Virus record (IMG/VR): IMGVR_UViG_3300027896_000115
Location: 1-37,819 of that record
Reading direction: 5' to 3' (one strand)
Length of the DNA stretch: 37,819 bases
From: a virus
Below the pieces are notes generated by a model. It worked only from the letters and a program-made list of their open reading frames with translations. It was not told the origin of the DNA and searched no databases. Shown here one piece after another: positions 2,047 through 26,565 of this stretch. The stretch's first letter is position 1, and every line of letters starts with the position of its first letter. A program made the position numbers and the translations under genes.

Positions 2047-2058
2047 AGGAGATTTTTT

Positions 2059-2325: not shown

Positions 2326-2337
2326 AAGGGGAATAAT

Positions 2338-2910: not shown

Positions 2911-2920
2911 GGAGGAAATT

Positions 2921-4456: not shown

Positions 4457-4471
4457 ACTTAGAGGTGTATT

Positions 4472-5008
4472 ATGCCTGAATACAGTACTGATGATATCGT
4501 AAAAAAACCAGAGGAGATGTCCTCGGTTCCTTCTATTTTAATGGCTGAAGCAAGTGCCATTATACCTGCTCAGGAGGAGCCAGAAGACCCTATTTGCCTT
4601 ACTATCAAAGAGGATGAAGTTCCAGACGCAGTTCTTAAATCTGTTTTATGGGGTCTTGCTGAAGAGCAGGCATCTCTTAAAAATCTGCGTCTGATGAGAA
4701 CAAGGGAAGGAAAAGATACTGCTAGTATATCAATAAAGCGTGGTCAGCTTCTTAAATACATGTCGGAGACCGTGTTACAGAAGCAGGCTTTGATGGGGTC
4801 CTCGGGTGGAGAAATTGATTTACAGGGTCCAAAATTTCGTGAAATTTTTAAAATGTTCCTCGGAATTATTTCTGATACTTTTGATGAAATAAAAGTTCCG
4901 GAAGAATATAAGGAAATGTTCTTTCACGCTCTTTCCAGGAACATGGAAGGGTGGGAGGACAGGGCAAAAAAAGTATTAAAAAAAATGAGCCGGCCTATAC
5001 AGGGTTAA
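4472..5008 (+). CDS. hypothetical protein, 178 aa, directly upstream of terminase
   Basis: The ribosome binding site is AGAGGTG. The first 45 residues are acidic and Pro-rich, and the rest is helical (LKSVLWGLAEEQASLKNLRL; FREIFKMFLGIISDTFDEI). It ends six bases before the terminase start. A small terminase subunit commonly sits here and is mostly helical, so that role is possible. There is no recognisable DNA-binding motif and I cannot confirm it. Alternatives are a terminase accessory or a head-completion protein. Confidence 0.7.
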   Translation: MPEYSTDDIVKKPEEMSSVPSILMAEASAIIPAQEEPEDPICLTIKEDEVPDAVLKSVLWGLAEEQASLKNLRLMRTREGKDTASISIKRGQLLKYMSETVLQKQALMGSSGGEIDLQGPKFREIFKMFLGIISDTFDEIKVPEEYKEMFFHALSRNMEGWEDRAKKVLKKMSRPIQG

Positions 5009-5014
5009 AAAATA

Positions 5015-6895
5015 ATGAGTCTTTCGGACCTTTGCACAACTTACATAAATAATTCTGTAAAACTAAAGGATGAGTCCGAAAGGAATATCGTTGAATTTTG
5101 TGAGGCTCCCTGGGGACTCGGAATGGGTTCGGAGCCTGGCGTACCCCCTCTACTTCCAGTTCAAAAATTCATCCTAAAATGTTATTATAATATCCTTCTT
5201 AATGGTCAAGACAAAACGATTATTATAAAGGATAAATTTAATGAAAAGGAGCTTTTTAGGTTTACGGAAATTGAGTATCTGCATTATTTATACGAAGAAG
5301 GACGAATCAATATAAAAGAAGTTACAGGAGACCCTAAAGATATACGTCCTAGTTTATGCTTGGTAATTGGTAGACGTGGTACTAAATCTACCACTATATC
5401 GTTGATTGTTAGTTTTGAGACTTATCGTTTGTTAAAAAAAGTCTGTCCGCAGGAATATTATAAGCAGATTCCAGACCAGGAAATACGAATCACCTGTATA
5501 GCCACGAATCAAGAGCAGGCTGCAAGTGTATTTCGGATGATAACAGGTCATATGGAGCGGGCTGAGTATTTTAAAAAGTATCGTAATAAGCCAACAATGA
5601 CATATATGCAACTCAGTACCCCAAAAGATATTGAACTTTATGGGGCTGAAATGAGGCCGTCCATAAGAATTGTAGCATCCCCGTGTAGTGGAAGAAGTAC
5701 AAGAGGTTATAACAATATTATAGCTATTATGGACGAAATGGGATACTTTTTTGAATCTGAAAGTTCAACGGATAAATCAGATAAAAATATTTATGATTCA
5801 TTAACTCCTTCTGTAGCCCGATTTAATTCTCCAGAAGGGGAACCCCATGGAAAAGTAATATGTATTTCTTCACCTGCTGCTAGAACGGGTAAATTTTATG
5901 ACTTATATCAGAGGTCTTTTGAACCAAATTGTAATGATTTATTAATGATACAGGCTCCTACATGGGAAGTTGACCATACACTTTCTTCTAAATTTCTCAG
6001 AGCTAAATATTCTGAATCCCCAAGTACTTACATGGTCGAATATGGGGCACAGTTCAGTGACCGTGTTACTGCGTGGATTGAAAACGAGCAGGTATTAAGG
6101 GTTAATATTATACCAAATTTACGAATGAAAACTGTAAGCTATGAACAGACCCCTCATTTTATGGGGATAGACTTAGCATCTAAAAATGACGGTGCTGCTG
6201 TAGCAATCGTCCATGTTGTACGAAAAGAGCATGAGGGTGGATTCAAGGATTTTATTGAACTCGATTATATAGATGTTCGGTATGCTGCTGATGAGGGTAA
6301 GGAATATTTCAGGATAGAGGACCAGGTTGAGTGGATATGTGGGCTGGCACAGAAATTTTTCATTACTAGGGGTATTATTGACCAATACATGGGATTCGGG
6401 TATCTTCCTGCGTTTCATGATAGGGGTCTTACACAAATTGAAATAGTACCAATGTCTAGAGATATGAATTCTAAAATTTATCAAACTCTTATGTCTAAGA
6501 TGCTGGATGCTTCATTGAGGATACCCGAAGGAGATGAAAGGGAAGTAGATAATAAAAAGACTAAGGACATAGCACTTGTTACTGAATTGTTAAGATTACG
6601 ATGTCTTATACATTCAAAATATATGATTGAAGTAAAGGCTCCGGAAATTAAGGGTTTACATGATGACTTATCTGACGCATATGCCCGGGCTGTATATATA
6701 GCAACGGAACACATGTCGAAAAGTAGTTCGATATCTAATAATATAGTAAATAATACATCTAAATCCGGATTGACCTATAGACAATATAATTTGCATCAAA
6801 AAAAGGCCTCAATTTATACCAACCGTCCGTCTACAGCTATTCAGGCGGATTTTGCCAGGTCTCGTCAGTCAATGGGGTCCCGGATTTGGAGGTAG
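5015..6895 (+). CDS. terL: terminase large subunit (packaging ATPase and nuclease)
   Basis: This is the motor that pumps DNA into the prohead through the portal and cuts the concatemer. The N-terminal ATPase has a Walker A variant GRRGTKST (residues 119-126, Lys124), a Walker B IIAIMDE (residues 235-241, Asp240, Glu241), and a Ser-containing coupling segment ICISSPAA. The C-terminal RNase H-like nuclease has MGIDLAS (Asp386), GIIDQ (Asp456) and HDDLSDA (Asp550, Asp551 and Asp554), the usual acidic triad. The length of 626 aa is typical, and unlike the portal and protease genes it has no intein. The ribosome binding site is weak (CAGGG), so translation may be coupled to the preceding gene. It overlaps nothing and the next gene starts four bases later. 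Confidence 0.96.
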   Translation: MSLSDLCTTYINNSVKLKDESERNIVEFCEAPWGLGMGSEPGVPPLLPVQKFILKCYYNILLNGQDKTIIIKDKFNEKELFRFTEIEYLHYLYEEGRINIKEVTGDPKDIRPSLCLVIGRRGTKSTTISLIVSFETYRLLKKVCPQEYYKQIPDQEIRITCIATNQEQAASVFRMITGHMERAEYFKKYRNKPTMTYMQLSTPKDIELYGAEMRPSIRIVASPCSGRSTRGYNNIIAIMDEMGYFFESESSTDKSDKNIYDSLTPSVARFNSPEGEPHGKVICISSPAARTGKFYDLYQRSFEPNCNDLLMIQAPTWEVDHTLSSKFLRAKYSESPSTYMVEYGAQFSDRVTAWIENEQVLRVNIIPNLRMKTVSYEQTPHFMGIDLASKNDGAAVAIVHVVRKEHEGGFKDFIELDYIDVRYAADEGKEYFRIEDQVEWICGLAQKFFITRGIIDQYMGFGYLPAFHDRGLTQIEIVPMSRDMNSKIYQTLMSKMLDASLRIPEGDEREVDNKKTKDIALVTELLRLRCLIHSKYMIEVKAPEIKGLHDDLSDAYARAVYIATEHMSKSSSISNNIVNNTSKSGLTYRQYNLHQKKASIYTNRPSTAIQADFARSRQSMGSRIWR

Positions 6896-6898
6896 ATA

Positions 6899-9800
6899 AT
6901 GTCCGAAAAATATACTGGTGATTATGCTCCTGAAATGTTTAATGAAGAAAAAAGGTATTATTTTCTTCAAGCACAGGAGAAGGCAAATCTCACAGACGCT
7001 GAGCTCCGTGACCTTCATAATATATCTAATACTAATTTAAGACGATTTATTCAGTCCCAACTTGGCAACTGTTCTATTAATGATGGTTTTAAAATTGTAG
7101 AGAGCGGTAGTCCATCCAATGATTTTACAATTAAGGGTGGAGACGGGTCTCTAAATAACCCCGGGGTCTATTATTTAAACGGGTATCGTTTTTTTCTTAA
7201 GGATGATATTTTATATTCTGACCAGACTAGTACCGGTGGTTCTTTAACCGATGACTGGTATACAAAATGGCCCCGTCCTGACCTTACAACCCCATCGGGT
7301 ACATCCAACACCTTAAATACTATTACTATTAGTGGGACTAATACTATTGCTGGTGGCGTATTACAGACAGTAGTTAAGTCATCGGATAGTGGTAGGAATT
7401 TTACTACATCAACCGTTCCTCCCGGGACTAAATCTATTGAAAATATTTCTATGGGGGATACAAGTAATGGATTTGCGGTTGGTACGACTGGTCTTATTCT
7501 AAAAACAACTGATGGTGGGACCTCATGGACACCTCTTTCATCGCCCAGTGCAAGTTCCCATTTTTATGGTGATAGTTTCATTAATAGAAATACTGGGTGG
7601 GTTGTAGGTGAAACAGGTAAAATATTTGAGACGGGTGACGGTGGTACATCGTTTATTCAACAGGGTATTGGAATTACATCTTATGACTTATATAGTGTGT
7701 CAGCAGCGGATGCAATCGATATATGGGCAGCTGGGGCTTCCGGTACAATTGTTTATAGTGATGATGGATTAAATTGGTCTAGCCAGCTTAGTGGGGTTGT
7801 GCTGGATTTAAATCATATCTTTGCTGTTGATGCAACCTATGTCTTCGCTGTAGGTAATTTAGGAACAATAATACGAACATCTAATAGTGGTATTCCTTGG
7901 TCTACTTGTACATCGGGTGTTACTAATAATTTATATGGAACTTTTTTCAGGAATAGACTCAGAGGTTGGGTCGTCGGAGCTAATGGTATTATTCTTAATA
8001 CGACTGATAGCGGTACAACATGGGATTCTACAGTTTTAGATTCATCTATTGATTTTAATAGTGTAACTTTTTCAGATACTACCGGGTTTACAGTTGGAAC
8101 AAATGGGACTATTTATCGAACATTAAATGATGGGACAACATGGGATAAGTATCGTTCTGATTACGTATATATAGATTTTCATTTGGCAGAATCATCAGGG
8201 GATGCTACCTCTGGGAGTGAATACATTGATTCTACGTTGTACGACCCATTAGTTGGGTTGCCCAATGCTAATCGTTTAAGAATTGTTCAGGATGTAAAAG
8301 TCTCCGAAGGATGGCCGGCACCATCTGATTATATTGGACCCGATGGAACTGTTCAGCATTATACTTCAACGATAGCAAAAATACAACGGTCGGTTGGTAT
8401 AAGTAATATCTTACAGGCGAATATAACGGACCTTCGAAGAGTTGTAAAAACAATATCCCAATTAGATAGTGCTTTAAGTAATGGTGGAATTGATACTTCT
8501 GCCATTGCTGACCATGCAATAACACCCATTAAAATAGACCCGACTGCTGATTATACAATGAGGTCTTTATATTTAACTGGGGATGAAACTGTAAGTGGAA
8601 ATTTAACAGTCCACGGTACTCTTACTGTTCAGGATTATCAGGCCACTATCAATACTGCAAATTTGAGCGTAATAGGGTCTTCTACTCTTGGAGCTTCTGA
8701 TAATACATCTGATTCAACTACTGCTATTAATGGAAGGATAATTCAGCATCATATAGCTAATTATCCAGCATATGATTTAACAGCATCAGCTTCTGTAATA
8801 AATTACCCTTTATTTAATATACACTCAGATGGTTCAGGTAGCATTTTGCATGCGGAAAGGATGTCTGATACTTCTGCTTGCTTCTTTGATATTACGAACT
8901 ATGGAAAAGGATATGATTTCTGTATAAATCATTTGGGAACAAAGGGCGGTATATTTAAGATAAGAGATGATGCAAGCGGAGATAGTATTGTTATTACTAA
9001 AAATGCACCCGGTTTTTTAGGTTCTGTTTTCAATGTTTCTAGTAATAGCTCCGACCCTCTTTTCAATATTTTTAATAAGGCTCCTGTTGCATCGGTTAGC
9101 ATAAGTATTGACCAAACATCAGGAACAATTCTTAGGCTTAATACAAATGGGAATGCATCGGCAATAGACATACAGTCGGCTGGGTCCGGTACAGACATTA
9201 AGGCTATACATAATGGAACAAGCGGGCACGCATTAGATTTAACTAGTTCATCCTTATCCGGGGCGGCTGTAATATCTAATACGGCCGGGCAAGCATTCCG
9301 TTTAACACAAAAAGCCAATGAAACTGCCCTTGTTATTGAAAAGGACGGAACGGGGCGTGGTCAGGGTCTTGAACTTTATAATCGTGGGTCTGATGTTGGC
9401 CTTGGTGTATATAACACTGGTACAGGTATTGGTCAGCTTATTTCTCATGTAGGAGACTCAACACAGCCCGGGTTGGATATTTTTATTGCCGGGAATGAAA
9501 GTGGGTCTGGATTACGGATTAATAAATCGAATGATACAACCGGTGAGCTGGTTCGTTTATGGAATCAGGGTTATAGTGAAACAATATGGATTTCTCATGA
9601 CCGTACTGATTCAACTGCATCCGCAGTAAAAATTTATAATCATAGCCGTGGACTAGATATTACATCGAATAATTGGTGGATAGATAGTTCGGGTAATTTT
9701 TATACCCTTGGATATGTTCATACCCCCCTAGTACGGTTTGACACTACTCATTATTTCTCGGCTGCATCTATGTGGTTGGATTATACCAACATGGACTCGT

Positions 9801-10312
9801 CTAATCCCGGTGTTGCTGGAAAAGTTTACAGAGAATTTGGATTTCTTAGATTGAGTGATGGGACGGGTGCTTCTCCTACTCCTTTCTTTGGTTCTACGGG
9901 CATTCAGGGTCCGACAGGTCCACAGGGTGTAACAGGACTTCAGGGGGTCGGTGTAACCGGTATCCAGGGGGTCGGTGTAACGGGTCTTCAAGGGTATACA
10001 GGGATTCAAGGGTCCACCGGTGTAGGGGGTAGTGGTTCATATAATCAAATAATGCACAAGGTAACAAGTGCAGAAGATTCTACTGGATGGTTTTCTGTAT
10101 CCCCTAGCCCTGCAGCTCCTAGTAGTGTAACTATTAATGTTGTCGGTGCTTTTAAAATTATAAATAAGCAGGTTGTCGGTGCTACAGGTGCAACTCCCGA
10201 TTTCGACGTTTTAAATGTTAATGAGATACATATTAAAAACGACGGTACTGCAACAGGTTTAAGTCAATATGTAGGCACAAACGATATCTTAATTATTGAA
10301 TATTTTGCATAA
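6899..10312 (+). CDS. large virion/tail protein with Ycf48-BNR-like propeller and short collagen-like segment
   Basis: GGAGG is six bases before the ATG. The 1137-residue product has an N-terminal domain of about 150 residues. At about 155-420 it has six or so repeats of the type G.AVG..G.I..T.DGG.TW (for example GFAVGTTGLILKTTDGGTSW and GWVVGETGKIFETGDGGTSF), characteristic of Ycf48/BNR-type beta-propellers. A helical segment near 500-535 precedes a long repetitive beta region rich in Ser, Thr, Asn and Gly. A short Gly-X-Y stretch (GIQGPTGPQGVTG) lies near 1001-1042, followed by a C-terminal beta domain. It follows the terminase directly. This architecture suggests a tail or fibre protein contacting the host surface; a ligand is not deducible. 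Confidence 0.8.
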   Translation: MSEKYTGDYAPEMFNEEKRYYFLQAQEKANLTDAELRDLHNISNTNLRRFIQSQLGNCSINDGFKIVESGSPSNDFTIKGGDGSLNNPGVYYLNGYRFFLKDDILYSDQTSTGGSLTDDWYTKWPRPDLTTPSGTSNTLNTITISGTNTIAGGVLQTVVKSSDSGRNFTTSTVPPGTKSIENISMGDTSNGFAVGTTGLILKTTDGGTSWTPLSSPSASSHFYGDSFINRNTGWVVGETGKIFETGDGGTSFIQQGIGITSYDLYSVSAADAIDIWAAGASGTIVYSDDGLNWSSQLSGVVLDLNHIFAVDATYVFAVGNLGTIIRTSNSGIPWSTCTSGVTNNLYGTFFRNRLRGWVVGANGIILNTTDSGTTWDSTVLDSSIDFNSVTFSDTTGFTVGTNGTIYRTLNDGTTWDKYRSDYVYIDFHLAESSGDATSGSEYIDSTLYDPLVGLPNANRLRIVQDVKVSEGWPAPSDYIGPDGTVQHYTSTIAKIQRSVGISNILQANITDLRRVVKTISQLDSALSNGGIDTSAIADHAITPIKIDPTADYTMRSLYLTGDETVSGNLTVHGTLTVQDYQATINTANLSVIGSSTLGASDNTSDSTTAINGRIIQHHIANYPAYDLTASASVINYPLFNIHSDGSGSILHAERMSDTSACFFDITNYGKGYDFCINHLGTKGGIFKIRDDASGDSIVITKNAPGFLGSVFNVSSNSSDPLFNIFNKAPVASVSISIDQTSGTILRLNTNGNASAIDIQSAGSGTDIKAIHNGTSGHALDLTSSSLSGAAVISNTAGQAFRLTQKANETALVIEKDGTGRGQGLELYNRGSDVGLGVYNTGTGIGQLISHVGDSTQPGLDIFIAGNESGSGLRINKSNDTTGELVRLWNQGYSETIWISHDRTDSTASAVKIYNHSRGLDITSNNWWIDSSGNFYTLGYVHTPLVRFDTTHYFSAASMWLDYTNMDSSNPGVAGKVYREFGFLRLSDGTGASPTPFFGSTGIQGPTGPQGVTGLQGVGVTGIQGVGVTGLQGYTGIQGSTGVGGSGSYNQIMHKVTSAEDSTGWFSVSPSPAAPSSVTINVVGAFKIINKQVVGATGATPDFDVLNVNEIHIKNDGTATGLSQYVGTNDILIIEYFA

Positions 10313-10335
10313 TAATTTTATGGGACTGATTAAAA

Positions 10336-10401
10336 ATGAGCGGAAGTTTACTTACAAACAAATGGATTACGGATAATATTCTTCTAATAAGAAATATTTA
10401 G
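10336..10401 (+). pseudogene. 21-codon remnant duplicating the start of the next fibre gene
   Basis: The first 11 codons encode [11 protein letters not shown], the same N-terminus as the gene starting at 10471. The DNA differs at several third positions, so the copy is old and was once under protein-level selection. The frame then runs into the 38-bp repeat and stops at TAG 10399. There is no good ribosome binding site. It looks like the stump of a deleted paralogous fibre gene. Confidence 0.6.
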
Positions 10402-10410
10402 GTTATATCC
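10373..10410 (+). promoter_or_regulatory. 38-bp repeat with dyad and CTTYTAATA box, probable late promoter (copy 1)
   Basis: The segment matches 17189-17226 with three differences in 38 bases. It contains an imperfect dyad, AATATTCTT against AAGAAATATT, around CTAAT. The core TCTTCTAATAA (10380-10390) also occurs before the genes at 26705, 31544 and 36324. It ends about 60 bases before the start of the 10471 gene. A promoter read by a phage-encoded sigma-like factor is the simplest reading; a recombination site is the alternative. Confidence 0.5.
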
Positions 10411-10470
10411 CTATAATCGAATATGCCTTGTAAGACAATCAGTGCTTAGTCATAACTGGGAGCTAAATTA

Positions 10471-13400
10471 ATGAGTGGAAGCCTACTTACAAATAAGTGG
10501 ATAGATAGTTCTGTTGTTAGTTTTGATAAACTTAAAACGTCTCATATATCTGGACTTGAAGGTGACAGTACTAATGGTATACGTATAAAAGTAGGAAGTG
10601 GTTTATCCCTTGATGTAAATGGACTCTCTGCTGATACGGGAAATACCGGGGTTCAAGGTACGACTGGGGTTCAAGGACGGACCGGAGTCCAGGGAACTAC
10701 CGGGGTTCAGGGTTTAACTGGAGTTCAGGGAAACACCGGGGTTCAAGGAGCTACTGGAATTCAGGGTACTACCGGGGTTCAAGGACGGACTGGAGTTCAG
10801 GGAGCCACAGGAGTACAGGGTTCAACAGGAATTCAGGGAACGACTGGGATTCAAGGGACAACAGGACCGGGGTCCACTGGTGTACAGGGAACGACTGGGG
10901 TCCAAGGCGCTACGGGACCTGGAGCCACAGGAATTCAAGGGACGACAGGAATTCAAGGTTTAACAGGAGTTCAAGGAGCCACCGGGGTTCAGGGAAATAC
11001 CGGAATTCAGGGAGTTACTGGGGTCCAAGGAATAACCGGAGTTCAAGGAACCACCGGTATTCAGGGTTCAACGGGACCTGGAGCCACTGGAATTCAGGGT
11101 TCAACGGGAGTACAGGGAACGACTGGGATTCAAGGAACCACAGGGTTCCAGGGAACGACCGGTATTCAAGGTACAACAGGACCAGGAGCTACCGGGGTTC
11201 AGGGCACAACAGGAGTCCAGGGATTTACCGGAGTTCAGGGCTCAACAGGAGTCCAGGGAACGACTGGGGTCCAAGGCACAACAGGGGTCCAGGGAACGAC
11301 CGGGGTCCAAGGCTCAACCGGGGTTCAAGGGCGGACTGGAGTTCAGGGGTCGACTGGAGTTCAGGGTTCAACAGGAGTTCAGGGCTCAACAGGAGTTCAG
11401 GGCTCAACAGGACCTGGAGCTACAGGGGTTCAAGGCACGACCGGAGTTCAGGGTTCAACAGGAATTCAAGGTTCAACAGGAGTTCAAGGTTCAACGGGAC
11501 CCGGAGCTACTGGGGTACAGGGTACGACTGGAGTTCAGGGTAATACCGGGATTCAAGGTTCAACAGGTCCGGGAGCTACTGGAGTACAGGGTACGACTGG
11601 CGTACAGGGCGTGACCGGAGTTCAGGGTAATACCGGTTTGGTTGGTTTAACTGGTTCACAAGGTGTTCAAGGTAATCTATATATTTTTAGGGATGGTCAA
11701 TGGCCTACTCCATCATATGCTGGTACTTTAAATTCCAGTATCAGAGAAGGAGCTCCTGATGACCCATATACAGGGCCATATCAATTCCTAGTTGATTCAA
11801 ATGGAGGAGCCAGTGCAGGTTCTCTTATTAAATTTGACCTATCTGTAATACCCTCAAATTTAATTGTATCAAATGTGGTTCTTGGTTTAACAACCACTAC
11901 TGGAAATCAGAATGTTGATAATTATTTTGTAATCTATGAAAGTAGACGAGCGTGGACTGAGTCTGCTACATGGAATAAATATGACGGAGCTAACTCATGG
12001 GGAACGGCTGGTGCAAGTAATACGTCATCAGATAGATATAATACTAGTCTTGGTACTATACATGATGGTGGTTCTGCTAATACATATTATGAGACAACAT
12101 TAAATTCGTCGGGTTTATCAACAATCCAGGCATGGATAAATGGTACAACTACTAATAACGGATTTGTGATACAGACATACGGTGGAGGGGGAACTAAAAG
12201 TAATTCTTTTTATACAAAAGACCAGGCTACATCGATAAGGCCAATATTATATGTATATGCAAGTGGACCTCAGGGAAATACTGGGGTTCAGGGCTCAACA
12301 GGAGTTCAAGGAGCTACTGGGGTCCAAGGTTCAACCGGGGTTCAGGGAACCACTGGAGTTCAGGGGCGGACTGGAGTTCAAGGCGCAACAGGAGTTCAGG
12401 GCTCAACCGGGGTTCAAGGAACCACTGGGGTTCAGGGAGTCACAGGAGTTCAGGGAACGACTGGGGTTCAGGGTTCAACGGGGGTCCAAGGAGCCACCGG
12501 GGTTCAGGGAGCCACTGGGGTACAGGGCTCAACGGGAGTTCAGGGCTCAACAGGAGTTCAGGGCTCAACAGGAGTTCAGGGCTCAACAGGAGTTCAGGGC
12601 TCAACAGGAGTTCAAGGAGCCACTGGGGTACAGGGAGCAACAGGAGTCCAGGGAACTACTGGGGTTCAAGGAGCCACTGGAGCCACCGGGGTACAGGGTT
12701 CAACTGGGGTACAGGGTTCAACTGGGGTACAGGGTTCAACTGGAGTTCAGGGAGCTACTGGGGTTCAAGGAGTAACAGGAGTTCAGGGTTCAACTGGAGT
12801 TCAGGGAGCTACTGGAGTTCAGGGAGCTACTGGAGTTCAGGGAGTAACAGGAGTTCAGGGCTCAACAGGAATACAAGGAGCCACCGGGGTCCAAGGTTCA
12901 ACTGGGGTTCAGGGAGCCACTGGAGTTCAAGGACGGACTGGAGTTCAGGGAACGACTGGGGTCCAGGGGTCGACTGGAATCCAGGGAACGACCGGGGTCC
13001 AAGGTTCAACCGGGATACAGGGCACAACTGGGGTCCAAGGCTCAACAGGGGTACAGGGTTCAACAGGGGTTCAGGGAACTACCGGGGTTCTTGGTGGTGA
13101 TGCAACTGCAACCTCTTATACTATATATAAGGGACATGACGGAACTTATGTACAAATGCAAATGGACTCGGGCGGTAATTTATTTTTAAATCCTCACATA
13201 TCTGGAGGAGAGAGTACTAGTGCAAATGTAATAGCGGCTGGACCACTATATGCCAGTTCCTTATACGCTTCGAGTTTAACGTCCAATAACGCAGTTTTGG
13301 GGCAAAGTATATACAACGCATCTAGTAACGGTATACGTATATCACAAGATAATACGGTTACGTTTTCTGGAGTTGTTCTTGGTAGTTTTACGGCTGGTAC

Positions 13401-14280
13401 TATAACAGCTTCCGGGCTTTCTACCACCGGTAATTTTACTGCGGCTAATATACATGCAACAGCTAATCAGGCAGTTGATGGGACGCAACATGTCTATGGA
13501 CAAGCTACATTTGATGGTACAGTAACTACCAATAAACCAATAAGCGCAGCCGACGTGCATATTGGATATGATGACCCGAGTCTTCATCCTGGGCAACTGT
13601 ATGTTGGATATACCGGATATCCAAGTAAAATAACTCTCGTTGGGGATATGTCTGCAACGGGTACCATACAAATAGATACACAGTTAAAATCGGCAATAGG
13701 AAAGTTTGGTGTAGATACGGGATATTCCCCCTCATCGAATAGTGTTTTACATCTGTCTGCAAAAACCAGCGGGAACGATGAAGCATTTGCGATATATAAT
13801 CATGCAGGTACGAGTCATCAATTGGTAAGAATGGGTGAGGCATCCTCCGGTGGAGCCATCGCTGGAGATAAAACAAGCGGGGCAATTACACTATTAAATA
13901 TGAATGGTGACTCAAGAGTTGTACTCACGGGTATAACTGGAGGCACTAATTATTTCAGTTTAAACACTGAGTTCTTGAGTGATGTAAAAGTGGACGGATA
14001 TTTAAATACAGGGTATGATAGCATTAAATATAAAGTATTGTCTGGTACAACGGGAGCACTAAATACTGATGCAAGTTTTGCTCATGGAGTTACATCTGGT
14101 ATAGACAAAATTGTTGGGTGTCAAGTAGGTATTATAGGTTCAGATACCTACAGATGGTTTAACGTTGCCAATGCAATGTATTGGTCAACAAAAATAAGTG
14201 ACACTGATGTAGTTATTAAGGTTGTTAATCTTTCTTGGACAAGTTGTTCAGTAAAAATATTTATAACGTATACATCTTAA
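10471..14280 (+). CDS. collagen-like tail fibre protein with DNRLRE-like domain, 1269 aa
   Basis: GGGAG precedes the ATG by nine bases. The domain order is: N-terminal segment 1-55; collagen-like rod about 56-400 made of [12 protein letters not shown] units; globular domain about 402-598; second rod about 599-875; C-terminal domain 876-1269. The globular domain has [26 protein letters not shown] and [20 protein letters not shown], the pattern of DNRLRE (CBM96-like) carbohydrate-associated domains. The rods are broken by GPGAT insertions that shift the Gly register. Residues 1096-1169 are nearly repeated in the spare cassette at 14842. No S74 chaperone motif was seen. The role inferred is a trimeric host-binding fibre whose last ~100 residues form a replaceable tip. 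Confidence 0.85.
12541..12612 (+). repeat. identical 18-bp tandem repeats in collagen-like coding DNA
   Basis: CAGGGCTCAACAGGAGTT (one QGSTGV unit) occurs four times without change, while most of the rod uses varied synonymous codons. This is a local, recent expansion where slippage or unequal crossing-over could change rod length in steps of six residues. Confidence 0.85.
13754..13977 (+). repeat. 224-bp direct repeat, expressed copy (fibre C-terminal region)
   Basis: The segment encodes [18 protein letters not shown] onward to SLNTEFL in the fibre gene. It aligns without gaps to 14842-15065. The last 84 bases (13894-13977) are identical, while the upstream part has scattered, mostly synonymous differences. 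The shared sequence stops abruptly at TTCTTG, after which the two copies encode unrelated C-termini. Confidence 0.9.
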
Positions 14281-14291
14281 GGAAGTGAAAC

Positions 14292-14603
14292 TCAACGTGT
14301 AGTAATAGTGTCTGTGTAAACGCCACAAATTGGGCAGGCGTGTATAACGTATATCCTATTGCATTGGGGGCACGTAAAATGCATTACCACGGACAAGCCC
14401 AAACATGTTTTTGTTATACTAGATGAGTCCCCAATTACTGGAGTACCATCATGGGGGCAAATGGTTATGTTATTAGTTACTGGTATACGTAAAGCCAGAG
14501 GATTACGAGTAACTCTTGGCTCAGTTGTTAACATTGATTTTGACTGAGAATAACAAAAAATAATTGATACAAATATAAAACTATAAATCATACGGCATTT
14601 CAT
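14292..14603 (-). CDS. small secreted or membrane-anchored zinc-ribbon-like protein, 103 aa
   Basis: On the minus strand AGGAGG lies five bases before the ATG at 14603. A GTG at 14609 would fall inside that site and was rejected. Residues 4-20 (RMIYSFIFVSIIFCYSQ) form a hydrophobic N-terminal segment, a signal peptide or anchor. The C-terminal half has Cys49-Pro-His, then Cys78-x2-Cys81 and Cys90-x2-Cys93, typical of a zinc ribbon. The Cys in the hydrophobic segment is preceded by Phe, so it is not a standard lipobox. The gene overlaps the end of the broken gene upstream (14581-14841). Both face against the fibre genes and look like an inserted accessory module. The function is unknown. Confidence 0.55.
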   Translation of the reverse strand: MKCRMIYSFIFVSIIFCYSQSKSMLTTEPRVTRNPLALRIPVTNNITICPHDGTPVIGDSSSITKTCLGLSVVMHFTCPQCNRIYVIHACPICGVYTDTITTR

Positions 14604-14841
14604 AACCACCTCCTATTTCTCTTTGTATAATTCCATTGCCTGTATTATGATACGCGATTTTTCTACCTCCAAGAACTATTCCTTCATACAAATTTTTGAG
14701 CCTGTGTATATCCCTTGGTTTTAATTGCATATTTTCCAGTATTACAAGAGCTTGGTCTACTAACTCATCCGGTTTAAAAATAGTAGTTAGTTCTCCTTTT
14801 TCGGCCGATACAATTATCGGTTCATTTTTTGCAATTTCAAA
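14581..14841 (-). pseudogene. 5'-truncated opposite-strand gene
   Basis: The frame encodes about 86 residues (including KPDELVDQALVILENMQLK and GGRKIAYHNTGNG) and ends at 14581, overlapping the zinc-ribbon gene. Read upstream, the coding sense breaks exactly where the 224-bp fibre repeat begins (14842). The open frame continues into the antisense of the repeat to an ATG at 14931, but those 30 residues are simply the reverse strand of fibre DNA. The original start was evidently removed when the fibre segment was joined here. A chimeric expressed protein is possible but unlikely. The family was not recognised. Confidence 0.5.
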
Positions 14842-15395
14842 TGTCTGCAAAAACCAGCGGGAACGATGATGCCTTCTCAATATATAATCACGCAGGTACG
14901 AGCCATCAACTTGTAAGAATGGGTGAGGCATCTACCACTGGAGCAATTGCTGGAGATAAAACAAGTGGGGCAATCACACTGTTAAATATGAATGGTGACT
15001 CAAGAGTTGTACTCACGGGTATAACTGGAGGCACTAATTATTTCAGTTTAAACACTGAGTTCTTGGCCCGGCTTACTCCTACAAAATTTGGGTATGGTGC
15101 GGCTGAAACAAACACGATTGCCTCGGGGGTAATTACACCGACCAAATCATTTATCGCTGTTGAAGTAGAGTCTGGGACAACAGATAATTTGGATACGATC
15201 ACAGCTACAAATTTTGCAGTTGGTGATATAATTATTATATCAACACTGACTACGGGTCATACTATAGGGATACGTTCTGCTGGTAATATAGTAACACCAA
15301 GTAGTGGTGCTACTAGATATCTAACCACAATTTATGGACGATGGCAAGGAATGTGGCAAGGGTCCAACTGGGCAGAAATGTCATTTGCACAATAA
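14841..15395 (+). pseudogene. silent alternative C-terminus for the collagen-like fibre
   Basis: This frame begins in the second 224-bp repeat and continues into about 110 residues unlike the tip of the 10471 gene (ARLTPTKFGYGAAETNTIAS, then IAVEVESGTTDNLDTITATN, ending GMWQGSNWAEMSFAQ). It is intact to its stop but has no ribosome binding site, and its only starts are an ATG at 14841 and a TTG at 14829 at the junction. The reading frame matches that of the expressed gene across the repeat. Homologous exchange within the repeat would therefore delete 1088 bp and replace the tip in frame. It contains one of the six GATC sites in the window. Its last 15 bases overlap the end of the convergent helicase gene. 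Confidence 0.6.
14842..15065 (+). repeat. 224-bp direct repeat, silent copy
   Basis: This is the counterpart of 13754-13977 in the same orientation with no gaps. At protein level four of 74 residues differ. Divergence is confined to the 5' two thirds. Confidence 0.9.
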
Positions 15396-17105
15396 TTTGA
15401 GTTTTTCAGAACTTTGAATAAATAGATAACTGGGGCTGACCTGGATAGGCTGACCCCTAAATAGTCGGCTCATAGAGTACGATACATTTAAATAATTCAT
15501 AGCCCTTGTAATTGCCACATAATAAAGTCGGTCTTCCTCCTTAATATCCTCTGACCTGGCGTGGGGCCATACATCCTGTTCTACTCCTACTACAAAAACT
15601 CTTTTAAATTCTAAACCCTTGCTAGCATGGGCTGTCATAAGTTTTACACCGTTACCTGAGTCATTTTCAAGAAAAGTGCTTGCTAATACCATCTCGTTAA
15701 TGGTATCAAATCCGGATGCTATGTCTATCATAGCTTCGGTCATACTTATATCGGAATCTTTAGTGAGTGTATTTCTATATCCTGTCCTATTTATGATTTC
15801 TTTAATGGCATTCATGGGAGTCATTACCCGTATATCATTTAGAAGGTTAACGAATAACTTAATTTCCGGCATCTCCTGAGATATCTGATTTATATAAGGC
15901 CATCCTTCTGATAATACTTTTTCCTGTTTAGCATCACCAAATCCCCTTTTAGGTACATTTATAATCCTCGTGAGACTTTCTATGTCATCCGGGTTACTGG
16001 CAGCTTTAAGATAAGATAAGAGGTCTTTAGAAACTTTTCTTTTATAGAAGGGCATATCACCAATTACTTTATATGGTATCCTGTTTTGTGCAAAAGCCCG
16101 TTCAAATAGTATAGACCGGGAGTTCATCCGGTATATTATGGTGGTATCCTCATAATTACCCATTTTTTTAATGGCATCGGCTATTTTTGTTGCTTCGTCC
16201 TCCTGACTACGAAATACCGAAACGGATACTTTACCTGTATTATTCGATTTAGGAACCATTTGTTTACCGAACTGCAGGAAACTGTTTGCGTGGTTTATAA
16301 TGTCAGAACATGACCTATAATTATATGTTAAATGATTTATGGTCGGATTATACTTCTTTATAAATTCATCCATGTTACTAGGTTTAGCCCCACGCCATGA
16401 ATAAATACTCTGATTCTGGTCTCCAAATACCATCATGGTTTTGGTTTTTATAGGGTCATAGATAGATAAAATAATGTCATATTGAATGGCCGATGTATCC
16501 TGAAATTCATCAATTAAAATATGATGCCATAGATTAGTGAAATGGGTACGACAATCTTCTTTTTTTAAACAATTGTTGGCATATACCAACAGGTCATCAA
16601 AGTCGCAGGCGTTATTTTTTAATAAGATTTTCTGATACTTATTGTAAATTTCTTCAAGGGTATCATCTTCAATTTCTGATTGTTCAGATTTAGTTTTACC
16701 GATAAGTCCTAATACCTCGTATGGGTCAGTAGTTATACCCCTTGTTTTAAGAATGGTTTTTATTACCGACATTTGGTCACTGTCATCATATATACTGAAT
16801 GGTAATTTTAGAGGAGTATATTGTATAAATTCTTTCATTATCCTGACACACAGACTATGAATTGTGCTCATTTGCATATCTTTTATGTTATGGTAAGTTT
16901 TTATACGCTCCTTCATCTCTTTCGCGGCTTTATTGGTGAAAGTAACAGATAAGATGTTTTTTGGATTTGCTCCATTATCAATGAGATAACGAATTCTTGC
17001 TACAAGACAACGTGTTTTTCCGGACCCCGCGGAGGCATAAATGACAGAGGGAGATTTAGAAGTCACAGCATTCCACTGTTCGTTGTTTAATCCATACTGC
17101 TCCAT
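15381..17105 (-). CDS. UvrD/Rep-type superfamily 1A DNA helicase, 574 aa
   Basis: The motifs are complete: a Q motif with Gln10 (GLNNEQWNAV), Walker A ASAGSGKT (24-31), motif Ia VTFTNKAAKEM, Walker B LIDEFQD (197-203), motif III FGDQNQSIYSWRGA (227-240), motif IV LTYNYRS, motif V MTAHASKGLEFK and motif VI YYVAITRA. An ATP-driven 3'-5' translocase acting in replication, recombination or repair is expected. At 574 residues it is shorter than bacterial UvrD/PcrA (about 720), as in other phage members. It lies on the opposite strand inside the tail-fibre block, with an upstream region (17106-17188) separate from the late genes, so it is probably an early gene. Its 3' end overlaps the silent fibre tip by 15 bases. 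Confidence 0.93.
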   Translation of the reverse strand: MEQYGLNNEQWNAVTSKSPSVIYASAGSGKTRCLVARIRYLIDNGANPKNILSVTFTNKAAKEMKERIKTYHNIKDMQMSTIHSLCVRIMKEFIQYTPLKLPFSIYDDSDQMSVIKTILKTRGITTDPYEVLGLIGKTKSEQSEIEDDTLEEIYNKYQKILLKNNACDFDDLLVYANNCLKKEDCRTHFTNLWHHILIDEFQDTSAIQYDIILSIYDPIKTKTMMVFGDQNQSIYSWRGAKPSNMDEFIKKYNPTINHLTYNYRSCSDIINHANSFLQFGKQMVPKSNNTGKVSVSVFRSQEDEATKIADAIKKMGNYEDTTIIYRMNSRSILFERAFAQNRIPYKVIGDMPFYKRKVSKDLLSYLKAASNPDDIESLTRIINVPKRGFGDAKQEKVLSEGWPYINQISQEMPEIKLFVNLLNDIRVMTPMNAIKEIINRTGYRNTLTKDSDISMTEAMIDIASGFDTINEMVLASTFLENDSGNGVKLMTAHASKGLEFKRVFVVGVEQDVWPHARSEDIKEEDRLYYVAITRAMNYLNVSYSMSRLFRGQPIQVSPSYLFIQSSEKLKLLCK

Positions 17106-17188
17106 TTTAAATAATACCTACATTTCATAGTTAAAATAAAGCAATATATAGGATTTTTTGTATCCCTATTATTTTCAACGCATTATAA

Positions 17189-17226
17189 ATAATATTCTTT
17201 TAATAAGAAATATTTAAGTTACATCC
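17189..17226 (+). promoter_or_regulatory. 38-bp repeat with dyad and CTTYTAATA box, probable late promoter (copy 2)
   Basis: This is the second copy of the element at 10373-10410, with TCTTTTAATAA at 17196-17206 followed by GTTA 12 bases later. It lies between the divergent helicase gene and the next collagen-like gene, about 115 bases before the proposed CTG start. The two copies differ at three positions only. Confidence 0.5.
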
Positions 17227-17318
17227 TTCAACAGGTGTATAAAATTTTCGTCCCGTAGGACATATTCGAGGGTGCGATTAAAAGCGTACAAACTCGACAA
17301 AAAACGGGGGAGGTTCTT

Positions 17319-20300
17319 CTGGCTAAGACCAAATCACGCTGGATTGTCGGTACAAAACGAGAATCCGGTCAATTCACAGAAATTACAAATCCCGATGCTC
17401 TCACTGCTGAAAAAGTACCCTATGATTCTACATGGAGTGTTTACGATGCAATACGCTTTGGATTAAGTGGCGTCCAAGGACCAAAAGGGTCTACCGGGGT
17501 TCAGGGCTCAACCGGAGTAGCAGGAGTTCGGGGTCTCACTGGAATTCAAGGTACAACCGGTATTCAAGGTTTGGGATATACAGGGGTTCAGGGCGAAACC
17601 GGAACCGCAGGAATAGGGTATACAGGGGTTCAAGGTACAACAGGCCCAACAGGTGGTGAACAAGGACATACTGGAGTTCAGGGAGTAACAGGAGTTCAGG
17701 GCTCAACAGGGATTCAGGGAACCACTGGGGTTCAGGGCACGACTGGAATACAGGGCACAACTGGACCGGGAGCTACTGGGGTTCAGGGTTCAACGGGTGT
17801 CCAGGGAACCACCGGAGTAGGACAGACTGGTATACAAGGCACGACCGGGGTTCAAGGAGCAACAGGAGTACAGGGAACCACTGGGGTAGGACAGACCGGG
17901 GTTCAGGGAACGACTGGAGTACAGGGAACCACCGGGGTTCAGGGAACGACCGGAGCTCAATTAACCGGCGCTTCTTACTTTTTTCATAGTAGTACTTCTG
18001 ATGCGACATCATCTTATAAATTGTTATCTAGGATTTTACCGGACACTACAGAATCACAATCTCAAGTTATTATAAAAAATACAACAAGTCCTCAGCTTAT
18101 AGGGAACTGGTGTACTATCGCTGGAGACCCAGGAATACCATTACCTACGGGTATAAGAACATATAGGTTATGGGAGTCAATGTCTTCATCCAGTGGAAAT
18201 ACAACTTTTTCCGCTCAAATGTTTAAAAGGGATTCATCCGGGAATGAAACATTTCTTATTGATTCAACATCTGGGTCTTTTACATCTGTAGCTGATGTGT
18301 GGAATGAAGTTATTTGGGATGTAAATATTTTAAGTTCCAGTATAATATTTGGTAGTACGGACCGATTTGTTCAAAAAATTTGGATTAATACAACCGATGT
18401 TTCTGATAAAACTGTAACTTTTGCATATGAGGACCAGTCACATTCATCTCATATCTTAACTCCAATTACTATAGGACTTCAGGGGGTAACTGGTGTACAA
18501 GGAGATACCGGAGTTCGAGGTACGACCGGGGTCCAAGGAACGACTGGAATACAGGGCACAACAGGACCCGGAGCTACTGGGGTTCAGGGCACGACCGGAG
18601 TTCAGGGAACGACAGGAATTCAAGGCTTAACAGGGGTTCAGGGCTCAACAGGAGTTCAGGGTACAACTGGTATAGAAGGTCTTGCTGGATTAGATGGAGT
18701 AACAGGTCCGCAGGGTTCAACAGGAGTTCAGGGCACGACCGGAGTCCAAGGTACGACTGGTGTCCAGGGAAATACAGGAGTTCAGGGCTCAACAGGAGTT
18801 CAGGGCTCAACAGGAGTTCAAGGCTCAACTGGGGTCCAAGGCTCAACTGGGGTTCAGGGAACCACCGGAGTTCAGGGCTCAACTGGAGTCCAAGGAGCGA
18901 CCGGAGTTCAGGGCTCAACTGGAGTCCAAGGAGCGACCGGAATTCAGGGTACGACTGGAGTTCAGGGAACGACTGGAGTTCAGGGAACGACTGGAGTTCA
19001 GGGAGCCACAGGAGTACAGGGTTCAACAGGAATTCAGGGCTCAACAGGAGTTCAAGGTTCAACTGGAGTACAGGGAGTCACAGGCGTTCAGGGAAGTACT
19101 GGGATTCAGGGAACAACAGGACCTGGAGCGACTGGAGTTCAGGGAACTACTGGAGTTCAGGGAACTACTGGTATTCAGGGCTCAACTGGAGTTCAGGGGG
19201 CCACTGGGGTTCAAGGAGCCACTGGGGTTCAGGGAAATACAGGAGTTCAGGGAGCGACCGGAATTCAGGGACGGACTGGGGTTCAAGGAAATACAGGTAT
19301 TCAGGGAGCTACTGGGGTTCAGGGCACGACTGGAGTTCAGGGAACGACAGGAATTCAGGGCTCAACCGGAGTACAGGGAGCAACAGGTGTCCAGGGAGTA
19401 ACAGGAGTCCAAGGAACGACAGGAATTCAGGGGTCTACTGGAACAGGTTTAGGACTGACTGGAGTACAAGGAACTACAGGGACCCAAGGAAATACTGGAA
19501 TTCAAGGGTCTACTGGAACAGGGCTAGGACAGACTGGTGTTCAGGGGGCGACTGGAATTTCTGGAGGTGGCACGGGTGTTCAGGGAGCAACCGGAATTCA
19601 AGGCTCAACAGGAACAGGTTTAGGATTGACTGGGGTACAGGGAACGACTGGCATACAAGGAGCCACTGGTGTTCAGGGAACTACCGGGGTTCAAGGCACG
19701 ACTGGGGTTCAGGGGTCGACTGGGGTTCAGGGGTCGACTGGAGTACAGGGTTCAACAGGAGTCCAAGGTTCAACCGGGGTTCAAGGCTCAACAGGAGTCC
19801 AGGGTTCAACAGGGATACAAGGAGCTACTGGAACAGGTTTAGGACTGACTGGAGTTCAAGGAACCACTGGGGTTCAGGGAGTCACAGGAGTTCAGGGAAC
19901 GACTGGGGTCCAAGGTTCAACTGGGGTACAGGGAGCCACTGGGGTACAGGGAGCCACCGGGGTACAGGGAGTAACAGGAGTCCAAGGCACGACAGGAATT
20001 CAGGGGTCTACTGGAACAGGTTTAGGATTGACTGGAGTTCAGGGAACGACAGGAATTCAAGGCTCAACCGGAGTACAGGGCTCAACGGGGGTTCAGGGAG
20101 CAACGGGAGTTCAGGGTTCAACAGGGGTCCAGGGAGCTACTGGAGTCCAAGGAGCAACAGGGGTCCAGGGAGCTACTGGAGTCCAAGGAGCAACAGGGGT
20201 CCAGGGAGCTACTGGAGTTCGGGGGGCTACTGGAATTCAGGGTTCAACAGGAGTACAAGGGTCTACTGGGATACAGGGAACGACAGGAGTCCAGGGTTCA

Positions 20301-20921
20301 ACAGGAATACAGGGAACAACTGGGATACAGGGAACGACAGGAGTCCAGGGTTCAACAGGAATACAGGGAACAACTGGCATACAGGGAGCCACGGGAGTAC
20401 AGGGAGCTACTGGAGTTCAGGGCTCAACAGGAGTTCAAGGTTCAACTGGAGTACAGGGAAATACAGGTATTCAGGGCATTACCGGCCCACTTATACCGCA
20501 TACCTCTCTTACAGATATGCCTGATACATCCGGTACTAATACAAACCACGATGTAAGATTAGTAACTAAAGTACAATCTACAACACCAACGATTCCAACG
20601 CCTTTTGCCGGTATGCTTTGGTGGGACACTACAGCGGCAACACCCGGAAATACTTTAGCAGTCACAACGGTTACATCGGGACCATATACAGTTACAAGTT
20701 CAGATGAACTTATCGTAGTACCAAGTGGGTCTTTTACTGTAAATTTGCCTGCTGCAACGGGGTCGGGTCGACTTATCTGGGTGAAATATTACGGGACAGA
20801 CACTCTTTCAGTAGATGGAAGTTCAGCAGAGACTATTGATGGTACTACAGTACAAAGTCTGTTAAATTCAGATAGTTTAATGGTTGCTGATTATGCTTCA
20901 GGAAAATGGGCAATTCTATAG
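17319..20921 (+). CDS. collagen-like tail fibre protein, about 1200 aa, probable CTG start
   Basis: The frame is open from 17259 and contains no ATG before 17571, which lies well inside the first collagen rod. GGGGGAGG at 17306-17313 is five bases before a CTG at 17319. The peptide from there ([12 protein letters not shown], then a segment to YDAIRFGLS) reads as genuine protein, so I start the gene there. The order is: N-terminal segment 1-49; rod 1 about 50-216; globular beta domain about 217-386 ([20 protein letters not shown] onward); rod 2 about 387-1056; C-terminal domain 1057-1200, containing [15 protein letters not shown]. The rods are broken by GPGAT, GVGQT and GTGLGLT interruptions. 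Alternatively the gene is 5'-truncated and the true start is lost upstream. A fibre role is inferred. Confidence 0.75.
20119..20218 (+). repeat. 36-bp exact tandem repeat in collagen-like DNA
   Basis: A 36-bp unit (two hexapeptides, QGATGV twice) is present at 20119, 20155 and, incompletely, 20191, without changes. It indicates a recent duplication in the second rod. Confidence 0.85.
20268..20375 (+). repeat. 54-bp exact tandem duplication in collagen-like DNA
   Basis: Two identical 54-bp units (20268-20321 and 20322-20375) encode three hexapeptides each. Their identity, against synonymous scatter elsewhere, marks a recent expansion. Confidence 0.85.
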
Positions 20922-23722: not shown

Positions 23723-24112
23723 ATGGCACAATTACTTTTGATTTCGGATATGACTTATCGAGAAGGGATTAATGAGATAGGAGACATTGTAGGTGTTTTT
23801 GATGATGACCATGTATTTTCGCCAGCAGAGATTGATTCTTTTACCATAAAGCAAGTAGATGAGTCAGTAGAAGATGTGTATGCAGAGCTAGACAATAAAT
23901 CGCCGGATACTTCTGCTTTAACTCAGGAGCAAATACAAAGGGATGTGATTCGTCCTAAGTACGCTAACCAGGTTACTGATTTAGAGGTTACAAGCATTGC
24001 CGATTGTGCATCATGCAAGATAGCCGTAGTAGGAGAGTCTGCTGCACTTGTAAAGGTTAAACCAGTACTAGGAAAAACGCCAGTTGAAAAATCACCAGGA
24101 GTTTCTCCGTAA
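23723..24112 (+). CDS. hypothetical protein, 129 aa
   Basis: ACGGAG precedes the ATG. The product begins with a beta-like MAQLLLISDMTY and has an acidic middle and a CASC pair near residue 95. The stop TAA shares its last A with the ATG of the next gene (TAATG), so the two are translationally coupled. It could be a small partner or chaperone of the beta-helix protein. No family was recognised. Confidence 0.7.
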   Translation: MAQLLLISDMTYREGINEIGDIVGVFDDDHVFSPAEIDSFTIKQVDESVEDVYAELDNKSPDTSALTQEQIQRDVIRPKYANQVTDLEVTSIADCASCKIAVVGESAALVKVKPVLGKTPVEKSPGVSP

Positions 24113-26565
24113 TGGCTACGAATGTTTATTATTCTGTAGGTCAGAACTCAACGGACCATAAGACAGGTTCTCCTACGATTACAATAGCTTCGGGAGTAGC
24201 TACTTTTTCTGTTGCTCAGACAGCAACAAACATGGGTGTAGGTGATCGAGTAACTTACAATACAACAAGCATTTGCTATTTAGTTGCTAAAACATCGACA
24301 ACGGTTTGGTCAGTTGTAACCGCTCTTGGAGTTGCCCCAGCAGATGTTTCTGGGCAGACAGTAAATTCCATTGCTCATGAGTATACTTCATTATCAGCAG
24401 CAGAAGCTGGCGCTCCAGATGCGGATCATATCAACAACACTTCTTTAGTTGCTGCTGATGTTGCTTTAAATATTCCTTGTTATTACGATTCAGCAGCAGA
24501 CACTACGTACTGTGTTATTTCTGGGTGGACAGTTGGAGAAACGAATTGGATAAAAGTTTATACTCCATACAATACGTCTACAGAATGCAATCAATCTCAA
24601 AGACATAATGGAGCATGGTCTAATACTGCATACAGTATGGCCCCGACAACTCAGGTTCATACGCTTACCTTATCTCAAGATTTTATTAGAGTTGATGGAT
24701 TACAGGTATCCACAACCACCTATAATGCTGAATATTTGAATGGTATATACATAAATGATGCAGGTAAGCCTGTAGCATGTCGTATAAGTAACAATATCGT
24801 AAAAGAGGGGAATGCTTCATCTGGTCGTAGGTATGGAATTTATATATCGAGTGAAGTTTATGCTGCTCTTCCGCATTATATATGGAATAATATTGTTTAT
24901 GGATTTTCTGCCTCTGGAATTAATAACGGTGTCTCATCCGCTACATTAAAGTGTTATGTGTATAATAATACGATTGCGAACTGTGCCGTAAGTGGAATAG
25001 CATCTACCTATAGAACAACTTTATCATATAACAGTATAATCTATGGTTGTCCGGATGCTGTAGATGGTGATGCACTTGACCCTTCAAGTGATTATAATTC
25101 TACTGATATTAATGAAACAAGTACTCCTTGGGGAACCCATAGCCGTAAGAATCAAACGTTTTCATTTGTAAATGCAGCAGGAAATGATTTTAGACTGTTA
25201 AAAACAGATGTTGGTGCAAGGACTTATGGAACAGATCTTTCTGGAGATTTAAACCTACCGTTTTCTACGGATATTGCTAATAATAACAGAAAAGTTCAAT
25301 GGGATATAGGTGCTTATCAGACACCAAAGACTGTTTACTATTCTGTAGGTCAGAACACAACTGATCATAAGACAGGCTCACCGAATGTAGTAATTGCATC
25401 AGGGGTTGCCACATTTGACGTAGCCCAGACAGCCACTAATCTTGGAGCAGGAGATAGGCTTACAGCTGGCGGAAATGTGTATTATCTATACTCTAAGGTT
25501 TCAACTACAGTATGGAATGTTGTAACAAAATTAGGAGTAATTCCAGCAGATTTGGCATCAACAGCCGTAACATCGATAGCTCACGAGTATACGTCTTTTT
25601 CCGCAGCAGAAGCAGGCGCTCCAGACGCTAACCATCTAAATACTTCTGATTTGGCTACAAATAACTTCATATTAGTTATCACATGCTATTATGATTCTGG
25701 CGAGGATACTAACGTGACAGATATTAATGGGTGGACAACGGATTCTACGAGGTATTTTGTTTTATATGTACCATATCTATCTACAGAATGCAATCAGTCT
25801 CAAAGACACGGTGGAGCATGGAGTTCATCTGCATATGTACTTAGCTATAATTCAACGCCTTATGTTTTATTAAATGCTGCAGAATTTACAGTAATTGATG
25901 GGATACAGCTTGCAAGTAGAAACGGTTCGCAGTACGGAGCCTTCGGAATACAAGATGCCAATTCTTCCACAGTTAGAAATTGCATTATTAAAGCTGAAAT
26001 GACCAATATAATTTCCATAAGTTATGGAATAGCCTACTACGGTACAACGAATGCTTCTTATTACTATAACAATATTATATATGGATGGATATCCTCTGGA
26101 AATAGAGCGTGTGGGATTTTTTCTTCAACTTACGGTTCAAGTTATTTATACATATATAACAATACTGTTTATGGTTGTGGCGGCGCTGGAGATGTAAGAG
26201 GTGGGAATATTCTTATTGGCGCTACTATTACTGTAGCAAGAAATAATCTTATGCAGGCTCCAGCTTATGGAACTAATGATTTTTATTCTACTGGTGGGGC
26301 TGCATTAACAAGTTCAAATAATATAACGAGCGATGCTTCCAGCCCGGATACGGCATACCGTAGTAAAACGGTTACTTTTTCCAGTCAGCAGTCCGTTGAT
26401 TATCGTTTAAGCCCCAAGGATTGCAACGCAAAAAATAAGGGCTATGACCTGTCTACGTTATTTACGACGGATATACAGAATAGAAAGAGACCTATAGGAA
26501 ATTCATGGGATATCGGAGCCAGTGAGGCTAAAGCTAGAGTAAGAATAACTTCAGTTAGCCACTAA
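24112..26565 (+). CDS. tandemly duplicated beta-helix (tailspike-like) protein, 817 aa
   Basis: The start is coupled to the previous stop, and AGGAG lies 12 bases upstream. The protein consists of two homologous halves, about residues 5-404 and 408-812. Each begins VYYSVGQN(S/T)TDHKTGSP, contains AHEYTS(L/F)SAAEAGAPDA and STECNQSQRH.GAWS, then short repeats such as YIWNNIVYGF and YIYNNTVYGC, and ends with TDI.N..R....WDIGA. The Asn-rich strand repeats and the DIGA ending are typical of right-handed parallel beta-helices found in tailspikes and polysaccharide lyases. No catalytic residues could be assigned. Four of the six GATC sites of the window lie here, unlike every neighbour, which points to later acquisition. 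Confidence 0.8.
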   Translation: MATNVYYSVGQNSTDHKTGSPTITIASGVATFSVAQTATNMGVGDRVTYNTTSICYLVAKTSTTVWSVVTALGVAPADVSGQTVNSIAHEYTSLSAAEAGAPDADHINNTSLVAADVALNIPCYYDSAADTTYCVISGWTVGETNWIKVYTPYNTSTECNQSQRHNGAWSNTAYSMAPTTQVHTLTLSQDFIRVDGLQVSTTTYNAEYLNGIYINDAGKPVACRISNNIVKEGNASSGRRYGIYISSEVYAALPHYIWNNIVYGFSASGINNGVSSATLKCYVYNNTIANCAVSGIASTYRTTLSYNSIIYGCPDAVDGDALDPSSDYNSTDINETSTPWGTHSRKNQTFSFVNAAGNDFRLLKTDVGARTYGTDLSGDLNLPFSTDIANNNRKVQWDIGAYQTPKTVYYSVGQNTTDHKTGSPNVVIASGVATFDVAQTATNLGAGDRLTAGGNVYYLYSKVSTTVWNVVTKLGVIPADLASTAVTSIAHEYTSFSAAEAGAPDANHLNTSDLATNNFILVITCYYDSGEDTNVTDINGWTTDSTRYFVLYVPYLSTECNQSQRHGGAWSSSAYVLSYNSTPYVLLNAAEFTVIDGIQLASRNGSQYGAFGIQDANSSTVRNCIIKAEMTNIISISYGIAYYGTTNASYYYNNIIYGWISSGNRACGIFSSTYGSSYLYIYNNTVYGCGGAGDVRGGNILIGATITVARNNLMQAPAYGTNDFYSTGGAALTSSNNITSDASSPDTAYRSKTVTFSSQQSVDYRLSPKDCNAKNKGYDLSTLFTTDIQNRKRPIGNSWDIGASEAKARVRITSVSH

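Follow-up and report, generated by a model that had tools for sequence, protein, structure and literature searches.

Silent-cassette antigenic variation, as at pilE/pilS, draws on part of a gene that has no promoter and is flanked by sequence homologous to an expressed gene. Among T5-like phages, DT530(1) arose when an in-register deletion fused ltfA and ltfB into one frame, an event ascribed to homologous recombination across direct repeats of the two genes, and in DT571/2-ABF a deletion fused LtfA residues 1-663 to LtfB residues 288-767 and host range changed (PMC4728585). In T-even phages, the adhesins of genes 37/38 are swapped when conserved motifs recombine (Tetart et al. 1998, cited in PMC3797505). 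Shuffling of fibre modules is widespread (PMC10684548, PMC12028318), and mosaicism of receptor-binding-protein domains, in which unrelated C-terminal domains come after a related segment, is as a rule a difference between genomes (PMC10684548).

Here we analyzed a fibre locus in a metagenome-derived virus contig of 37,819 bases (the window), which covers part of one genome. As in the ltfA-ltfB genes of DT57C, DT530(1) and DT571/2-ABF, an in-frame direct repeat links the expressed rod to an alternative tip (tip B), so that an in-register deletion would join the rod to the other tip, and single-gene and two-gene fibre versions exist among relatives. In the DT57C group, however, both fibre genes are complete and expressed beforehand, whereas the second copy in the window is a headless 3' end with no rod, Shine-Dalgarno sequence (SD) or natural start, and no deletion product is known for the window locus. 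Repeat-mediated fusion of tips is thus, given the T5-like precedent, not new in kind, and it is the headless second copy that differs. With the T-even genes, the locus shares a conserved segment beside a variable adhesin as recombination point, but exchange there takes place between co-infecting phages and the window has both tips in one genome. It likewise has the related segment and unrelated C-termini of receptor-binding-protein mosaics, except that the leftover lies within a single genome. Like a pilS copy, tip B is part of a gene, has no promoter and adjoins homology to an expressed gene; unlike pilE/pilS, the window has one cassette with homology on one side of the variable part only. 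Recurrent transfer is not in evidence, and the one possible trace of transfer from or to the silent copy is a single 84-nt identical tract (p about 0.003).

Source of the contig and a syntenic relative

The portal encoded in the window shared 45% identity with the one from an uncultured 485-kb phage; those of Tunturi_5 and Bacillus phage G were more distant, and the best relatives in IMG/VR had portals 64-69% identical to the window's; the source of the window is a large-genome (giant) phage. Single-protein scans of IMG/VR with the orphan, the repeat, the helicase, the protease, the minus-strand fragment and tip A (the C-terminus of the intact fibre) returned no relatives, nor did scans of genome_contigs with the orphan and with the rod end plus tip A, and no near-identical contig was returned from either collection.

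A single syntenic relative was found, IMGVR_UViG_3300028840_006907 (G004; 469,617 bp), which has the gene order of the window: orthologues of 1456-6895, TerL (62%), fibre, a small minus-strand frame and a helicase (53%, minus strand). Its slot holds a single uninterrupted fibre of 2337 aa and no orphan tip, and 10313-15380 of the window is therefore a variable slot. The comparison of related phages for either tip on this rod, which the first-pass annotation had called for, thus yielded a single fibre in G004, and the IMG/VR and genome_contigs scans turned up neither a variant nor a relative in which the rod of 10471-14280 carries tip B. Elsewhere, G004 carries two tandem complete fibre genes (L133:4980-12173) that are 76% identical over approximately 1000 bp of 5' sequence and then have unrelated ends; the first of the two weakly matches the N-terminus of the window fibre. 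As these tandem paralogues have common 5' ends and unrelated 3' ends, turnover of fibre paralogues is, judging from these genes, normal in this phage group. Since a small minus-strand frame also separates the fibre and helicase genes of G004, tip B may be an intruder rather than the native end of the slot.

Two fibre ends share a direct repeat

The intact fibre gene (10471..14280, plus strand; SD GGGAG) encodes a collagen-like tail fibre of 1269 aa (Pfam Collagen, 1e-86; PHROG tail fiber, 2e-123) that consists of a GXY rod, repeat copy 1 (R1) and tip A. Tip A (13978..14280, plus strand; 100 aa) is the expressed copy, and its GC content (33%; GC3, 19%) lies at the low end of the window's coding range. 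Orphan tip B (15066..15395, plus strand; 109 aa) is a C-terminal fibre-type domain. It resembles the C-terminus of a protein of Vibrio phage LP.2, with 30% identity across the aligned end, and one domain in a phage protein from IMG/VR (L007; 40%). AlphaFold single-sequence models of both fibre ends were uninformative (pLDDT 34 and 37), and a PDB sequence search gave nothing meaningful.

In agreement with the first-pass annotation, a gap-free 224-bp direct repeat precedes the two unrelated C-termini: R1 (13754..13977, plus strand), inside the fibre gene, and copy 2 (R2; 14842..15065, plus strand) are identical at 206/224 positions (92%) with a spacing of 1088. Both copies are in the same reading frame, and a crossover in the repeat therefore yields an in-frame fibre with tip B, as had been claimed; from the coordinates, the product would be an uninterrupted fibre with tip B at its end and 1088 bp deleted. 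The homology stops at 13977/15065 with none beyond the tips, i.e., it is one-sided; the 5' end of the repeat is the cut of a rearrangement, and its 3' end is the point where two fibre types diverge.

Divergence was followed site by site along the repeat, as had been suggested, and all 18 differences fell between 13782 and 13893, within the first 140 bases, leaving the last 84 nt (13894-13977) identical in R1 and R2. Identity of the end of the repeat and drift of its upstream part were thereby borne out: an identical run of at least 84 nt is improbable under random placement of the differences (p = 0.0025 anywhere, p = 0.00016 at the 3' end) and also when placement is by codons (p = 0.0044 and p = 0.00025, respectively). 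The synonymous differences numbered 12/18 (Nei-Gojobori count), with dS 0.28 and dN 0.036; R1 and R2 diverged as coding sequence under purifying selection, as expressed genes. Chance is thus a poor explanation of the 84-base identity (p about 0.003), and the tip-proximal part of the repeat has probably been through at least one exchange or conversion, more recent than that of the rest. The first-pass annotation had gone further, to exchange that recurs; past exchange is the part that stands, as a single tract in a single case shows at most that and not recurrence. Local constraint may be an alternative source of the identity.

The orphan frame comprises 184 open codons, and tip B is intact, with no stop or frameshift. 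It had been described as lacking a start; an ATG is in fact present in this frame at 14841-14843, exactly at the break junction, but its SD pairing of -2.7 kcal/mol, where most window genes reach -6 to -18, amounts to no SD, and the frame has no ribosome-binding site. Given this missing start signal, tip B is most likely not translated. As stops, frameshifts and other visible decay are absent, a relic of this kind must either be young or be under constraint. Tip B was found free-standing in no relative, and self-comparison of the fetched loci (collagen repeats filtered, coverage partial) revealed no second headless tip repeat.

The borders of the second copy and of the intact fibre gene

Directly left of R2 lies the 3' remainder of a minus-strand gene (14584..14841; 84-86 codons), and the sequence places the break junction between this fragment and R2 at 14836..14843. 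Upstream of 14842, the frame enters the fibre repeat without a plausible start; the sole in-frame ATG ahead of it, at 14931, is part of the fibre repeat and lacks an SD. Read from its sequence, the frame looks like the rear of a gene beheaded at the start of R2. Its 3' end overlaps, and contains the strong SD (-15 kcal/mol) of, a small cysteine-rich, zinc-ribbon-like gene (14292..14603, minus strand), for which Pfam matches were zinc-finger and weak only. No relatives of the 14584..14841 fragment were found. The break at the left border of R2 thus truncates a neighbour gene, and G004 has no equivalent orphan fragment, which is the pattern of a mosaic scar. On the other side, a convergent UvrD-type helicase gene (15381..17105, minus strand) overlaps tip B by 15 nt, and the slot has this same boundary in G004. 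Truncation of the helicase by tip B was considered and rejected: the protein ends about 12 residues past PSYLF, versus about 9 in G004.

The first fibre gene of the slot (6899..10312, plus strand) has its own short collagen stretch and its own tip, and its first 999 aa are 52% identical to the N-terminal part of the long G004 fibre L097 (tblastn). It is followed by a 5' scar (10336..10368, plus strand), where a related fibre gene starts and breaks off after its first 11 codons. These 33 nt match 10471-10503 at 27/33 positions; the six differences are all synonymous, leaving the 11 residues unchanged, and with both strands of the window considered the next best match reaches 20/33. With fibre fragments at 10336-10368 and in R2-tip B, the intact gene is therefore flanked on both sides. 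Both flanking scars could come from one displacement event; two separate events are possible, since synonymous divergence is higher in the 5' scar (6/6 sites) than in the diverged part of R1/R2 (12/33). The idea that the 5' scar and tip B are two equally diverged ends of one displaced gene was dropped on these counts.

Between the 5' scar and the intact fibre gene lies an AT-rich imperfect palindrome (10373..10410, plus strand) that is 92% (35/38) identical to 17189-17226. The two copies in the window stand one upstream of each of two collagen-fibre genes, and the element, a candidate promoter or operator, was absent from the relatives checked. Matches to promoter and terminator consensus sequences in 10200-17700 were at chance level, and Rfam gave no match.

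Interpretation of the locus

We consider the locus to be, more likely than not, a mosaic scar of fibre-gene turnover, in which tip B is a relic, still intact and open to re-fusion by a crossover; such a relic together with one past exchange accounts for everything seen. Recombination between related fibre alleles or paralogues would have produced the intact fibre (rod, R1 and tip A) with R2-tip B trailing it, or, in the alternative order, a fibre cassette would have been placed in front of R2-tip B. The 5' part of the gene to which tip B belonged would have been lost at the break that beheaded the minus-strand neighbour, the order of events being presumed, and R1 and R2 would have diverged as coding sequence before a crossover or conversion, to which the tract points, homogenized their last 84 nt. 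Homologous recombination within the repeat could still re-fuse tip B in frame, at the cost of a one-way deletion of 1088 bp. The abrupt left border at the beheaded frame, the further fibre-gene scar at 10336-10368 and the orphan ATG without SD support this explanation, as do the orphan-free slot and the tandem paralogues of G004, the R1/R2 divergence (dS 0.28, dN 0.036), the RecA homologues of the relatives tested and the wide spread of fibre-module shuffling; the undamaged state of tip B and the 84-nt tract, which means that the copies have interacted, count against it, and the unequal synonymous divergence of the 5' scar and R1/R2 counts against a single displaced gene. Even read as a relic, the locus offers a rarely preserved view of a fibre being replaced, in which the two tips, the recombination arm and the broken neighbour still adjoin.

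The first-pass annotation had instead proposed a stored tip that is reused. That tip B is a functional reserve, with crossover or conversion in the repeat swapping it for tip A in part of the population as a host-range switch, appears doubtful to us, even though the frames agree, identity reaches up to the junction (p about 0.003), tip B is intact, RecA homologues were found in 4/4 relatives tested, which makes homologous recombination plausible, and DT530(1) and DT571/2-ABF provide a laboratory precedent. Storage does not fit an orphan that starts at a gene-breaking junction, with another fibre scar upstream; a switch does not fit a crossover that is a one-way loss of tip A and two minus-strand frames, nor the lack of a tip-B rod in the relatives searched, and one past exchange suffices for the 84-nt identity. 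Still more reserved is our view of a maintained single-cassette reserve, a headless second tip swapped onto the rod by RecA-type recombination of the phage in the manner of pilin silent cassettes, which we regard as unlikely. Were tip B ever re-fused, such phages would hold an alternative receptor-binding tip reached by plain homologous recombination, and exchange of tips would need neither an invertase nor a diversity-generating retroelement (DGR).

Independent translation of tip B into a short fibre-tip protein, with the ATG at 14841 as its start, is very unlikely. This ATG coincides with the junction, has the right frame and is followed by the 184 open codons, but SD pairing is absent, the ATG arises at the break and a free-standing copy occurs in no relative found. 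An assembly chimera, in which two co-occurring variants with different tips were joined in one contig, is a slim prospect as well: 84 identical bases in a metagenome contig are a classic misassembly site, yet a chimera at that block would give the rod with tip B or R2 with tip A, not both tips in series, and the junction of the minus-strand fragment and R2 is unique sequence that needs a real joint. A DGR or site-specific inversion, for which the position of the repeat at the end of a receptor-binding gene might speak, has practically no chance. The repeat is direct, with no inverted pairs of at least 30 nt in 10000-17000; the differences between R1 and R2 are not adenine-targeted (3 and 4 of 18); and neither a reverse transcriptase in the four relatives tested nor a serine recombinase or resolvase in G004 was found. 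Both hallmarks of a DGR (reverse transcriptase and adenine-specific differences) and of Mu/P1-type inversion (inverted repeats and serine invertase) were thus missing, in line with the exclusion of these systems in the first-pass annotation. Its statement that no invertase or reverse transcriptase is nearby is correct as far as the main ORFs of the 37.8-kb window go, which is part of the genome.

Other fibre genes and homing elements

An HNH/homing-endonuclease-like gene is located at the start of the contig (345-1259), and homing could drive exchange in this genome. The portal gene (27606-30929) contains an in-frame intein with a LAGLIDADG homing endonuclease (Pfam LAGLIDADG_3, Hom_end and Intein_splicing), and the prohead-protease gene (33387-36230) contains an intein-like insert (Hom_end_hint and Intein_splicing). 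The 817-aa protein encoded at 24112-26565 has two similar halves, each opening with a VYYSVGQN..TDHKTGSP motif. The second collagen fibre (17319-20921) has an apparent CTG start with a strong SD (LAKTKSRW...), and its relatives begin MAKTK...; since the gene seems to start at this CTG, the start that ORF callers place at 17571 would be wrong.
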